NCBI RefSeq assembly: GCF_001989615.1
Contig: NZ_CP019067.1
Span: 1 to 64,000, forward strand
Direction of reading: 5' to 3'
From: Halorientalis sp. IM1011
GTDB taxonomy: Archaea > Halobacteriota > Halobacteria > Halobacteriales > Haloarculaceae
Length of the DNA: 64,000 nucleotides
The translations under genes were made by a program, and so were the position numbers. This document shows, in pieces, positions 15,945 to 31,259 of this stretch (the stretch's first letter is position 1; each line of letters begins with the position of its first letter). The notes under the pieces are model-generated. The model had not been told where the DNA came from. It did not search any database and saw nothing but the letters and a program-made list of their open reading frames with translations.

Positions 15945-16122
15945 GGGGTCGTGGCCAAGTCCGGCATGGCGACTGACTCCAGAGGCACCGCGCCCGGTGA
16001 CGAAACTCCAGACTGATATACTGAGCGGACGGCTGATCACCGCCCGCGCTGATGACCCTCTGGAGTTCCGAGGCGCGACCGGAGATATCAGTCGATCGGG
16101 AGTTCAAATCTCTCCGACCCCA
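15945..16122 (+). tRNA. tRNA-Trp (CCA) with 104-nt intron
   Basis: Exon 1 runs GGGGTCG to G37 at 15982, with the CCA anticodon at 15979-15981. Exon 2 begins at A38 (16087), followed by TCAGT pairing with ACTGA. The acceptor end CGACCCC plus A closes at 16122. The deduced intron, 15983-16086, contains a ctgatgacc box C-like element and ctga box D-like elements. In Haloferax the equivalent intron is a C/D guide RNA that directs 2'-O-methylation of the tRNA itself; that role is inferred here from position and boxes. Confidence 0.92.
15983..16086 (+). ncRNA. tRNA-Trp intron, probable box C/D guide RNA
   Basis: A 104-base intron at the canonical 37/38 site, released by the tRNA splicing endonuclease. 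Box C-like tgatga occurs at about 16049, and ctga boxes occur near 16002, 16018 and 16035. Guide pairing was not modelled in detail. Confidence 0.6.
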
Positions 16123-25107: not shown

Positions 25108-26181
25108 ATGCCCTCAGAATCGCCGTTCATCGACCCCGAGGAGCAACGGGTCCTTCCAGACACAACCGCTGATAGCATCGAGGAGCAATACCTGTCGGTT
25201 CGTTCTGGAACCAACCTACGATCTGAAACAGTGACTATCAAAAACCGATCAAAACAGTGGGACGCGGTGGTTGAGGCGTTCAAGGATTACGTCTGGCGAC
25301 AGCACAAGGCAGCGAACACGTGGGCTGACGAGAGGGGTGTTCGACCGAATAGCCACAGGTTTACTGAACGGGCGTCACTTGACAGATACGGCAGAACACT
25401 GGGTGTTGATCGAGCGGCTGGACAGCTCTGGGGTGGAGACCTAACTACTGTCCATGTTGTTCGTCGTGCCAGACCATTCGGAGAGGATGGACAACCCCAA
25501 CCGCCTGCCGACTTCCTGAGCGACCTGCTGGCTGGTGATAGGAATGTCTATCGGGCATATCAGAGACACATCGAGGAAAACCACGGCTTGCAGTATGCTC
25601 GTTTGTCAGTGCTGGAACCCCATGGTAACGGGTATCCACACATCCATGACGCCCTCTGGGTCAACGACCCCGACGCCGTCCTCTGCGAGACGGACATCTA
25701 TCCCGCCGTCGATGCCCACCTGGACGCCGTCGAACAAGCACAACCCAGAAACCACAGTGACGCCGTCGAGGTACGACACGACCCAGAGCGCCGAAAGTAT
25801 CCATCTGACCCCAAGGGTTCACACCCAACAACCCCACTACCACGAGAGGTTACAAAGTATCTTGCAGGCCTCGCACCCCATGACGAGGACTCAGACCGTA
25901 AGGGGAACGTCCCGAACGTTCTCCAAGCCAACAGGGGACCACTACGGTTCTATGCCCTACTGTGGGCGAGTGGGATCAGACAGTGGCGACCAGACCAGCA
26001 GTTGTTCCAGCGGTTTGTGACACTGTCCCAAGACTGGTATGGGGCCGACGACGGTGAACGGGAAACGAACACAGAGACGTACCCAGACCCCGAGGACATC
26101 GACACCAGCAGCGGGATCGAAACTGTGGACATCGACAGTAGGCCAGTAGACTACGAACCGTTTGTCGCAGACAAAGTGTAG
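25108..26181 (+). CDS. HUH rolling-circle replication initiator (Rep)
   Basis: A 357-residue protein starting MPSESPFIDPEEQRVLPD. The metal-binding HUH motif is GYPHIHDALWV (His178, His180), preceded by LQYARLSVLEPHGNG. A likely catalytic tyrosine follows in EVTKYLAGL (Tyr251). This order is that of rolling-circle initiators of haloarchaeal plasmids and some pleolipo- and SNJ1-like viruses. It would nick one strand at the origin and ligate the displaced circle. The gaggac before the ATG may serve as ribosome-binding site. Confidence 0.82.
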   Translation: MPSESPFIDPEEQRVLPDTTADSIEEQYLSVRSGTNLRSETVTIKNRSKQWDAVVEAFKDYVWRQHKAANTWADERGVRPNSHRFTERASLDRYGRTLGVDRAAGQLWGGDLTTVHVVRRARPFGEDGQPQPPADFLSDLLAGDRNVYRAYQRHIEENHGLQYARLSVLEPHGNGYPHIHDALWVNDPDAVLCETDIYPAVDAHLDAVEQAQPRNHSDAVEVRHDPERRKYPSDPKGSHPTTPLPREVTKYLAGLAPHDEDSDRKGNVPNVLQANRGPLRFYALLWASGIRQWRPDQQLFQRFVTLSQDWYGADDGERETNTETYPDPEDIDTSSGIETVDIDSRPVDYEPFVADKV

Positions 26182-26752: not shown

Positions 26753-26890
26753 CCTTTGAAGGAGAATAGGCATAGATAGGGGACAGTTTTCTCTTTCTTC
26801 TCGCCCTGCTCACTATGCGATGCCTGTGGTTCTCCATTCCAATTGTGCCAGTGGCAAATGTATAATGGACGGTAGGTTCTATTGCCACCA

Positions 26891-27619
26891 ATGTCAGGTA
26901 CTGTCGATCTAAGAACCTATCTTCAGTCTATCGATCCATACGATTTCGAGAAGTTGGTCGCGGCAGTCTGGAATGAATCTGGATTCGAGACTGATGTACA
27001 GAGCAAAAGTAATGATCGGGGGATCGACGTTGTCGCCAGGAAGCGCAATCCCATCGAACAGATACAATTCATCCAGGTGAAACGATACTCTGATGGAAAC
27101 AAAGTTGGGAGCGAGGAAGTTCGGAAGTATGCTACTCTCTACCAACAGTCTGACGCAGTAGATGTTGTTGTGATTGTGACGACGAGCGAGTTTACGACAC
27201 AGGCAGAACGCCTCGCCAACGATCTTGACATGAAGACTGTCGACGGCTATCAACTGTGTCGGATGATACAGGAGACTGGTGTGCTATCCGATCTGATGGC
27301 GGACGAGGGGGAGTCACAGGAGCAGGAATTTGACTGGGAAAACCCTCAAAATGTACGGGATGGACCAGTTGAGGAAAAAGAGTTGAGCGAGGCAGGAACA
27401 AACACAAACAAGCAAATACCTAATAAGCAGACAGAGTCTGGAGAAGATGGGTCGTCGAAAAGTCTCACAATTTATTTAGTGGTATTTGTTTTGCAGATGT
27501 TCTTTCTGGTTCTTGCATTTTCTATGATCAACAAGGGTGTAGAGTGGTTGGTGGGTCTTTCATTTTTTGTGGCAATGACACTTTCTGGCAAACTTATAAA
27601 AATGAGATTTGTCGATTGA
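26891..27619 (+). CDS. Mrr-like restriction endonuclease-fold protein with membrane tail
   Basis: A 242-residue protein. The N-terminal Mrr catalytic-type domain (YDFEKLVAAVWNESGFETDV) has Asp46 in RGIDVVARK and the QxK motif at Gln62/Lys64 (FIQVKRY), the active-site layout of the PD-(D/E)XK superfamily. A linker of ~60 residues leads to two hydrophobic helices at the C-terminus (YLVVFVLQMFFLVLAFSM and GLSFFVAMTLSGK). Membrane-tethered Mrr proteins are seen in prokaryotic defence and mobile elements. Target DNA unknown. Confidence 0.75.
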   Translation: MSGTVDLRTYLQSIDPYDFEKLVAAVWNESGFETDVQSKSNDRGIDVVARKRNPIEQIQFIQVKRYSDGNKVGSEEVRKYATLYQQSDAVDVVVIVTTSEFTTQAERLANDLDMKTVDGYQLCRMIQETGVLSDLMADEGESQEQEFDWENPQNVRDGPVEEKELSEAGTNTNKQIPNKQTESGEDGSSKSLTIYLVVFVLQMFFLVLAFSMINKGVEWLVGLSFFVAMTLSGKLIKMRFVD

Positions 27620-29960: not shown

Positions 29961-30044
29961 CCTGCTGTTCAGTTTGGTGGTATATGAAAGTATCATTATT
30001 CCAGGTATTATGGTGGTAGAGATGCAACGTGGTAGTAACTCACC

Positions 30045-30107
30045 GACGGATTGCGTCTGAAAAGACGCGCCTGTTGGAGCAGGCCCGTCAGTGGGTTGAG
30101 GCAACCC
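30045..30107 (+). promoter_or_regulatory. Structured leader A (three-way junction plus AUG-proximal hairpin)
   Basis: P1 GACGG/CCGTC (30045-49 / 30085-89) encloses P2 GCGTC-TGAAAA-GACGC and P3 GCCTG-TTGGAG-CAGGC. P4 GGGTT-GAGGC-AACCC (30093-30107) then abuts the ATG at 30108. The only Shine-Dalgarno-like bases (GAGG) sit in the P4 loop. A TATA-like tatatgaa near 29981 predicts a ~100-nt leader. The same architecture occurs at 30689. Confidence 0.8.
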
Positions 30108-30551
30108 ATGAGTAAAATGCAGTCTGCGGAGCATGAAAGTTCCGCCACGGCGAAGCACAGTTCACAAACGAACGACGGCAGTAAGACCACTGCGCCCAGT
30201 GAGGAGCCTTTTGCTGATCGTCGCTGGGAACGGTCGAACATGCAGCAGATGGCCGATGAGATAATCCGTAACGCTCGGTCCCTCGATCCCCAGTCTGATG
30301 ATCGATTTGAGACGGAGAACCACCACGATGTCCCGATAACGGCCACGACGATTCAGACCTTCCTGTTCGCTGGGAAACGCCGCTCGGTCCGTAGACAACG
30401 CGACGGACGGACTCTCTCAGTTACAGTCGAACATTCTATCTGGTTCAGTGACGACATAGAGGGGTTCGTTCAGTTCCACATAAAGGGAGACATTGAGACG
30501 AAGGACGTGAAGTCTGTCGACGTTGTCTCAGCGCGGGAAGAAAAGCGGTAG
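30108..30551 (+). CDS. Hypothetical protein behind structured leader A
   Basis: A 147-residue protein starting MSKMQSAEHESSATAKHSSQ, with a low-complexity first 35 residues. A basic middle follows (FLFAGKRRSVRRQRDGRTLS) and a beta-rich end (VEHSIWFSDDIEGFVQFHIK). No family recognised. The start at 30108 is fixed by the leader hairpin, whose 3' strand ends at the base before the ATG and whose identical twin also stops exactly at an ATG. Confidence 0.7.
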   Translation: MSKMQSAEHESSATAKHSSQTNDGSKTTAPSEEPFADRRWERSNMQQMADEIIRNARSLDPQSDDRFETENHHDVPITATTIQTFLFAGKRRSVRRQRDGRTLSVTVEHSIWFSDDIEGFVQFHIKGDIETKDVKSVDVVSAREEKR

Positions 30552-30688
30552 GGTCAGCAGTAATATATACATACGCTTTCTGTTCATTCTAATCGTAACC
30601 GACTAACAGCGGTGCTGTATAGAGTACTTTAATCCTGATATGAACCACCACAACTAAGGGGGTGGCATATCTACGTAGAAGTAACTCG

Positions 30689-30752
30689 CTGCGTGTTCGC
30701 GCTTTGCAGAAAGCGCCCCGTTGGAGCGGGACGCAGTGGGTTGAGGCAACCC
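30689..30752 (+). promoter_or_regulatory. Structured leader B (same fold, compensatory changes)
   Basis: P1 CTGCGT/ACGCAG (30689-94 / 30731-36), P2 GCGCTTT-GCAG-AAAGCGC (30699-30716), P3 CCCG-TTGGAG-CGGG (30717-30730), P4 GGGTT-GAGGC-AACCC (30738-30752), then ATG at 30753. Compared with leader A the stems differ in sequence but keep pairing. The P3 loop, the whole P4 hairpin and an upstream gtaactc are unchanged. A TATA-like tactttaa near 30625 predicts a ~100-nt leader. Confidence 0.8.
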
Positions 30753-31259
30753 ATGACCGAGTACGCCACTGAGGTTCAAGAACCTCACGACCTGGAAGAC
30801 CGTACCGTTCGCGCACTAACTGAATGTATGTCGGCTCTCCCTGAAGGTGGAGACATCTACACCGTCGTCAGTGAGTCGGGAAGCTCCTACAAAGTCGACT
30901 CACGACAAGGACGATGCAGCTGTCCCGACAGTCAACATAACCTCGATGATGACGAGTCGTGTAAACACGAGCGACGGGTGGCCTTCGCCACTGGGGTCCA
31001 TGAGGTTCCTGACTGGGTCAACACTGACGCCATCGATCCGCAGTTGGGTGACCACGTCGAAGGTCCGTCAGTCGTTACTGACACCGTCACAAGTACCACT
31101 CAGGCAATAACCGACGGTGGTACTACGTTGGCCACCTCCCAAGAGAAAGATGTCGAGAGTGCAGATACTGAGAACGACGACTGTGATTGTTCCAAACTAC
31201 CTGACGGCTGCCCCTGCTGGCCCTGCTATCGAGAAGGAAAGGCGACATTCAGCGACTGA
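30753..31259 (+). CDS. SWIM zinc-finger protein behind structured leader B
   Basis: A 168-residue protein starting MTEYATEVQEPHDLEDRTVR. A SWIM-type zinc motif spans residues 55-72 (CSC, then a 12-residue gap, then CKH), preceded by YTVVSESGSSYKVDSRQG. A second Cys cluster lies at the C-terminus (CDCSKLPDGCPCWPCYRE). SWIM domains bind DNA or proteins and occur in transposases, recombination mediators and haloarchaeal element proteins. The role here may be regulatory. Confidence 0.75.
   Translation: MTEYATEVQEPHDLEDRTVRALTECMSALPEGGDIYTVVSESGSSYKVDSRQGRCSCPDSQHNLDDDESCKHERRVAFATGVHEVPDWVNTDAIDPQLGDHVEGPSVVTDTVTSTTQAITDGGTTLATSQEKDVESADTENDDCDCSKLPDGCPCWPCYREGKATFSD

Follow-up and report, generated by a model that had tools for sequence, protein, structure and literature searches.

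The window, that is, the whole stretch of 64,000 nucleotides of Halorientalis sp. DNA analyzed here, contains two adjacent small genes that are each preceded by a structured leader RNA, and comparison with their relatives strongly supports the view that these leaders are two divergent members of one structured class of 5′-untranslated region (5′-UTR) RNAs. We consider it likely that each leader is the whole 5′ UTR of its gene and acts as a bistable translational switch. Two leaders that fold alike had been drawn in the initial annotation and are present as drawn, with limits that need widening to 30031-30107 and 30676-30752 (the covariance-model spans are 30031-30110 and 30676-30755; Table 1). 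As it had described, helices P1, P2, and P3 are unlike in sequence yet paired in both leaders, and the TTGGAG loop, the hairpin GGGTT-GAGGC-AACCC at the ATG, and an upstream gtaactc are identical in both. The 3.78-Mb host genome has only two exact occurrences of GGGTTGAGGCAACCC (zero mismatches), and a DNA pattern joining both invariant hairpins was found in the window only, among 392 genomes searched. Two further leader copies are present in the host genome, at C2:212410 and C1:2262640.

Table 1. Features of the two leader loci in the window (helices are given as 5′ strand/3′ strand)
Feature	Position	Strand	Remarks
TATA-like element TATTAT, leader 1	30006..30011	+	About 25 nt 5′ of the RNA start; predicted for this copy
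Leader RNA 1 (W1)	30031..30107	+	R2 score 44.8 bits, W1 outside the training set; computed fold
W1 P1	30036-30049/30085-30098	+	Computed fold
W1 P2	30053-30057/30064-30068	+	Computed fold
W1 P3, loop TTGGAG	30069-30073/30080-30084	+	Computed fold
W1 strand a (TAACTCAC)	30036..30043	+	Extends P1 by pairing with 30091-30098; a:b duplex -19.5 kcal/mol
W1 P4 hairpin GGGTT-GAGGC-AACCC	30093..30107	+	Abuts the ATG; 5′ arm is strand b, common to P1; b:c duplex -9.0 kcal/mol
Payload gene 1 (P0001), 147 aa	30108..30551	+	Without Pfam or PHROG family
Coding motif, gene 1 (CATGAAAGTTCCG)	30132..30144	+	C25..A29..C36 G37 from the ATG; class-wide conservation
TATA-like element ACTAAGG, leader 2	30653..30659	+	About 26 nt 5′ of the RNA start; predicted, position matches TATAAG of the Halovenus relative L016
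Leader RNA 2 (W2)	30676..30752	+	R1 score 17.9 bits, W2 outside R1 training; R2 score 34.7 bits, W2 a training member
W2 P1	30682-30694/30731-30743	+	13 continuous pairs
W2 P2	30699-30705/30710-30716	+
W2 P3, loop TTGGAG	30717-30720/30727-30730	+
W2 P4 hairpin	30738..30752	+	Stops at the ATG; incompatible with outer P1
Payload gene 2 (P0002), 168 aa	30753..31259	+	SWIM zinc finger, phrog_17897; CxC..CxH and C-terminal CDC..PCWPC
Coding motif, gene 2 (CAAGAACCTCACG)	30777..30789	+	Distance from the ATG equals that in gene 1

A protein search with P0002 in 392 Halobacteriales genomes yielded many SWIM homologues, and upstream of the 29 best homologues outside the window a leader of the same plan was present in 23 cases, with entirely different stem sequences and ending at the start codon. 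A covariance model (R1) built from nine leaders of SWIM zinc-finger homologues had matches (E ≤ 0.1) in 226 of the 392 genomes, often in multiple copies, and detected W2 although W2 was outside its training set. A wider model (R2), with 96 training leaders that include W2 and exclude W1, matched W1 with an E value of ∼2.6e-9 over 91 kb, E values of these models being rough because the calibration was shortened. Across a phylum sample of 148 genomes, matches were obtained exclusively in Halobacteriales; this sets a bound on false positives and indicates that the class is restricted to this lineage. The covariance-model search that had been proposed in the initial annotation thus returned relatives with paired stems across the order. 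A simple recent duplication of W1 and W2 without conserved pairing, raised there as the alternative, is ruled out: the downstream proteins are unrelated, and distant homologues retain the pairing. No Rfam 15 family matched the leaders, including at permissive E values on ten loci, and none of its riboswitch classes fits; we found no published description of the leader RNA, a 2017 survey of 224 candidate RNAs being covered only via its Rfam-deposited families. This is a large leader-RNA family that is apparently new to description.

The class is not confined to the element in the window: members occur throughout the order, on both chromosomes and plasmids. Among the latter are records from Halomarina and Natrinema, one of them annotated in the order HTH gene, leader, SWIM gene. 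Leaders on the same strand are in places clustered one to three kilobases apart, each copy with its own promoter and payload gene (L101, 1393-1490 and 2446-2531; G061:C24, 38193-43209). A viral origin of the leader was considered and rejected, as 20 IMG/VR contigs fit the DNA pattern and gave only one weak model match (19.4 bits), and the SWIM gene of halovirus BJ1 is without a leader directly upstream. Several SWIM genes, mostly of genus g3 (L032, L034, L036, L038, L039, and L040), have another, highly conserved leader with TTTTCTGYGCCCCAGCGGGGTGAGGGGCGTCCCAGAGAGGGCGTGCCGCCTGTCATTC right before the ATG, which is unmatched by the model and is possibly a second leader type. A few kilobases upstream of the two window leaders lie genes for a DUF1424 Rep protein (25108-26181) and an Mrr-type restriction endonuclease (26882-27619), consistent with an integrated element. 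Elsewhere in the window (15945-16122), an Rfam tRNA match that was missed by ARAGORN spans 178 nt and is probably a tRNA with a long intron.

The shared architecture is a three-way junction of P1, P2, and P3, followed by a hairpin, P4, that ends 0 or 1 nt before the AUG in 107 of 123 leaders. Among the model matches, 110 of 111 end in ATG, which is partly by construction since the ATG lies inside the model; this does not hold for the N-terminal coding motif that they share. In 96 model-aligned leaders, 95.4% of the cells were paired, versus 72% in shuffles and 36 to 52% in slid controls, with double changes in 23 of 24 pairs and 558 double-changed cells versus 158; for 82 model-aligned leaders the values were 94.9% standard pairs, double changes in 22 of 24 pairs, and 39 to 48% in slid controls, and while the fitting of the alignments to the structure inflates these pairing counts, the gap to the controls is still very large. 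G.U cells greatly outnumbered A.C cells (85 versus 19 in 56 nonredundant leaders), which argues for selection on the sense-strand RNA. Unpaired bases are conserved as well, namely CUCG in J12, GAAA in P2, and YUGGAR in P3. The P3 hexaloop occurs in two forms, YUGGAR and CGCCAA (for example, TTGGAG in W2 and CGCCAA in L016), which are near reverse complements, as if the P3 hairpin were inverted in some lineages. Plain MAFFT alignment and RNAalifold, applied to 21 leaders, recovered P3 alone, the stems having diverged beyond what sequence alignment can handle.

In the initial annotation, P1 and the third hairpin had been drawn as coexisting, and this part of the drawing does not stand: in W1, TAACTCAC (30036-30043) has its partner in the 5′ arm of the third hairpin (30091-30098), and in W2, 30682-30694 pairs with 30731-30743, so that the folds exclude each other. 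More generally, strand a (gtaactc in the window), at the leader's 5′ end, and strand b, the 5′ arm of P4, extend P1 outward in the computed folds (P1ext, state A), and P4 consists of the same strand b paired with strand c, the bases just before the AUG (state B). Since strand b is common to P1ext and P4, both helices cannot coexist. We compared the duplex energies of each leader's own strands with those of strands swapped among leaders; P4 pairs are absent from the covariance model, and the P4 test is therefore independent of it. Among 56 leaders of less than 80% identity, the a:b duplex had an energy of -9.61 with own strands and -5.64 with swapped strands (Z -15.5), the b:c duplex -9.10 and -5.87 (Z -11.1), and the a:c control -2.84 and -2.65 (Z -1.7). 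A repeat with 29 leaders of less than 75% similarity, including W1 and W2, gave Z scores of -13.0 (a:b), -5.9 (b:c), and -0.1 (a:c). That own strands pair better than swapped ones for both a:b and b:c indicates that selection keeps both exclusive helices. A shuffled-tail energy test of P4 was uninformative (mean z -0.56), and the mix-and-match comparison was used instead. The predicted RNA and its two alternative states are, on this comparative evidence, well supported, and an aptamer-type helix (P1ext) shares a strand with an expression-platform-type helix (P4), as expected of a riboswitch. By nearest-neighbor energies, state A lies below state B by a median of 4.3 kcal/mol, values that apply to 37°C and standard salt rather than molar KCl, and some leaders (of the L012 type) compute as state B. 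For the window copies the P1ext duplex has about -20 kcal/mol, and their switching would need strong help or cotranscriptional kinetics.

The RNA is linked to the promoter on one side and to the coding sequence on the other. TATA-like tetramers peak 25 to 27 nt upstream of the RNA 5′ end, and such a word is present between -34 and -20 in 92 of 111 leaders versus 2 in a control stretch; from this position the leader is most likely the entire 5′ UTR. Together with the many homologues with compensated stems and the excess of G.U over A.C, the TATA position bears out the suggestion in the initial annotation that the leaders represent a cis-regulatory RNA class. The promoters contain more repeats than their shuffles do (22 versus 6 perfect inverted repeats and 25 versus 3 direct repeats). 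In 95 of the 111 cases, a small winged-helix gene, a linked putative regulator, is oriented divergently and starts ∼85 nt away from the RNA; near the two window copies, no winged-helix gene was found. Within the payload genes (n = 111), a 13-nt motif, CWWRARNSYNNCG, occupies codons 9 to 13 (positions 25 to 37 from the A of the ATG) and is conserved at A29 (105 of 111), C36 (103 of 111), and G37 (105 of 111). Codon 12 encodes many different residues, yet the motif nucleotides are 93 to 95% conserved, and the element reads as a linear nucleotide motif. No pairing of the motif with the leader was found. A coding-region hairpin, P5 (GGCAC-TTGAAC-GTGCC), was persuasive in a few leaders and was dropped, as no covariation was seen over 85 sequences. 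Binding of the loop GAGG to 16S rRNA, which had also been proposed, is weakly supported: Shine-Dalgarno 4-mers around the P4 loop are mildly enriched, with 54% of leaders versus 39% of shuffles.

The leader precedes unrelated small proteins, mostly with zinc-binding motifs. Sixty-three of the 111 payloads fall into one cluster that includes the SWIM proteins; 11 have fewer than 40 amino acids, and the remainder divide into more than 20 other groups. Zinc-type cysteine motifs are present in 77% of the payloads of 40 to 230 amino acids versus 23% in a background set from haloarchaeal plasmids and viruses (69 small annotated genes), a link that is a correlation only. By eye, no ribosomal-protein genes were recognizable downstream of the leaders in the payload lists. 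One genus has seven to eight scattered copies upstream of near-identical 45-amino-acid zinc-ribbon proteins (several per genome in G224 and G387: L219, L221, L224, L225, L227, L228, L230, L231, and L233 to L237), and the leader stems of these copies differ but stay paired; the arrangement looks like a multicopy mobile unit. SWIM as an obligate partner of the leader was considered, and this idea was weakened by four leader-bearing genomes without a SWIM match above the Pfam cutoff (G010, G012, G191, and G387, the last with 8 copies), the Pfam model being insensitive and missing P0002 itself. P0001 is unrelated to the SWIM proteins; its first 16 residues resemble the N termini found behind other leaders, and a distant homologue sits immediately 5′ of a Halovenus SWIM gene without such a leader. 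The leader and the N terminus were thus probably grafted onto P0001. An AlphaFold model of P0002 (pLDDT 65.6) had no significant match in the PDB.

In the mechanism that we propose, strand a would pair with strand b in state A and close the three-way junction, in which P1 carries the hairpins P2 and P3. With the AUG, strand c, and the loop (which has a weak GG of Shine-Dalgarno type) single stranded, the ribosome could start. In state B, strand b would pair with strand c, and P4, abutting the AUG, should hinder the 30S subunit; because the AUG lies outside P4, blocking by P4 is an assumption. An effector, either a protein or a small ligand, acting on the junction and the conserved unpaired bases would stabilize state A or B, in parallel to a translational riboswitch or an autoregulated leader. 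We infer that such switching takes place in cells, that state A is on and state B off, and that an effector exists. A synthetic riboswitch with a helix that masks the Shine-Dalgarno sequence and the AUG functions in Haloferax volcanii (PMC8241225), and translational regulation was lost when stem-loops in a haloarchaeal 5′ UTR were mutated (PMC2636863), which makes such control feasible, in the former case at molar salt. A more ambitious version, to which we give limited credence, would have the junction sense a ligand and the leaders form a major riboswitch-like class of archaea, with several copies per genome across Halobacteriales, that translationally controls a regulon made up of small zinc-binding proteins; the leader would then be one part of a mobile promoter-RNA-peptide module that has a divergent winged-helix regulator of its own.

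Two alternatives specify the effector of the switch, and neither denies the switch itself. The zinc-finger payloads (SWIM and C2HC) might bind the leader at the P3 hairpin, the junction, or the coding motif and act as repressors or activators of their own translation, in an autogenous or cross-regulating manner like ribosomal-protein leaders. The large SWIM-containing payload cluster and the excess of zinc-type cysteine motifs would fit, as would a hairpin and a linear motif near the start codon, which is a frequent layout for protein binding; against it, many payloads are unrelated to SWIM, four leader genomes lack a SWIM match by the insensitive Pfam model, and the P3 loop is variable, and we regard it as possible but rather doubtful. 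The leader might instead be a riboswitch proper, the three-way junction being an aptamer for a small molecule or ion that would close P1 and free the AUG, and here zinc is one candidate because the payloads are mostly zinc proteins. The topology is that of known switches, with the 3′ strand of P1 common to an expression hairpin at the AUG, one RNA stands ahead of diverse genes, and unpaired bases are conserved in J12, P2, and P3, whereas the unpaired core is small and shows some variation, the genes are without a metabolic theme, and the link to zinc is correlative; our confidence in an aptamer is accordingly low. The payloads are too diverse for a ligand to be named.

The other two alternatives dispense with an effector or with the RNA. 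A thermometer, a salt sensor, or a stable 5′ end that protects the mRNA at a fixed translation rate could draw on the few kilocalories per mole between the states in many leaders (median as given above), which physical conditions might tip; mere stability needs no coevolution of two exclusive helices, and the conserved junction bases suggest recognition, which makes an effector-free RNA unlikely. A role at the DNA level, as a folded single-strand recombination or integration site (integron attC-like) that moves promoter-leader cassettes between small genes, would account for a promoter, leader, and ∼13 codons that act as a module ahead of unrelated ORFs, for the payloads shorter than 40 amino acids, as in decayed cassettes, and for the clustered copies (L101 and G061:C24). 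The excess of G.U over A.C, the fixed placement from TATA to AUG with P4 stopping at the AUG, and the coevolution of alternative helices, which has no role there, all run counter to it, and we consider a recombination site very improbable. The translational switch is the reading that we favor.

Only a handful of archaeal cis-regulatory RNAs have been confirmed or even predicted (PMC7247131), and, on the basis of transcript mapping in Haloferax volcanii, structured leaders have come to be viewed as atypical of haloarchaea (PMC4983044). The present class, found in 226 of the 392 Halobacteriales genomes and with evolutionary support for two alternative folds at the start codon, contradicts this view. 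It suggests that many small zinc-binding proteins are under translational control in haloarchaea, makes such control directly testable in standard hosts, and opens a way into what hundreds of unannotated proteins of this type do.

Among archaeal riboswitches, that for fluoride in Thermococcus kodakarensis is described as the only one determined by experiment (PMC8241225). Like such translational riboswitches, the leader is a 5′-UTR RNA in which the 3′ strand of the junction helix P1 is common to a start-codon hairpin, giving two exclusive states; unlike them, it has a different structure and different genes, no match to an Rfam riboswitch model, a ligand at candidate level, and a distribution limited to Halobacteriales. 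With the ribosomal-protein leaders, among them the S15 leader of Halobacteria (PMC7247131, which lists four such leaders as predicted in archaea), it shares a structured archaeal leader, covariation, and possible binding by the product of the mRNA, and it differs in the many unrelated nonribosomal payloads behind one RNA and in having no Rfam match. The SWIM proteins (PF04434) of haloarchaea and halovirus BJ1 are the family of gene 2 in the window, but the BJ1 gene is internal to an operon and is not directly preceded by a leader, and the leader RNA also precedes non-SWIM genes. The synthetic theophylline riboswitch E of Haloferax volcanii (PMC8241225) likewise places a helix near the Shine-Dalgarno sequence and the AUG and there controls haloarchaeal translation; it is man-made, has a known ligand, and masks the AUG itself. 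What is new in comparison with these systems is a class of switch-like leader with an unusual modular setup.
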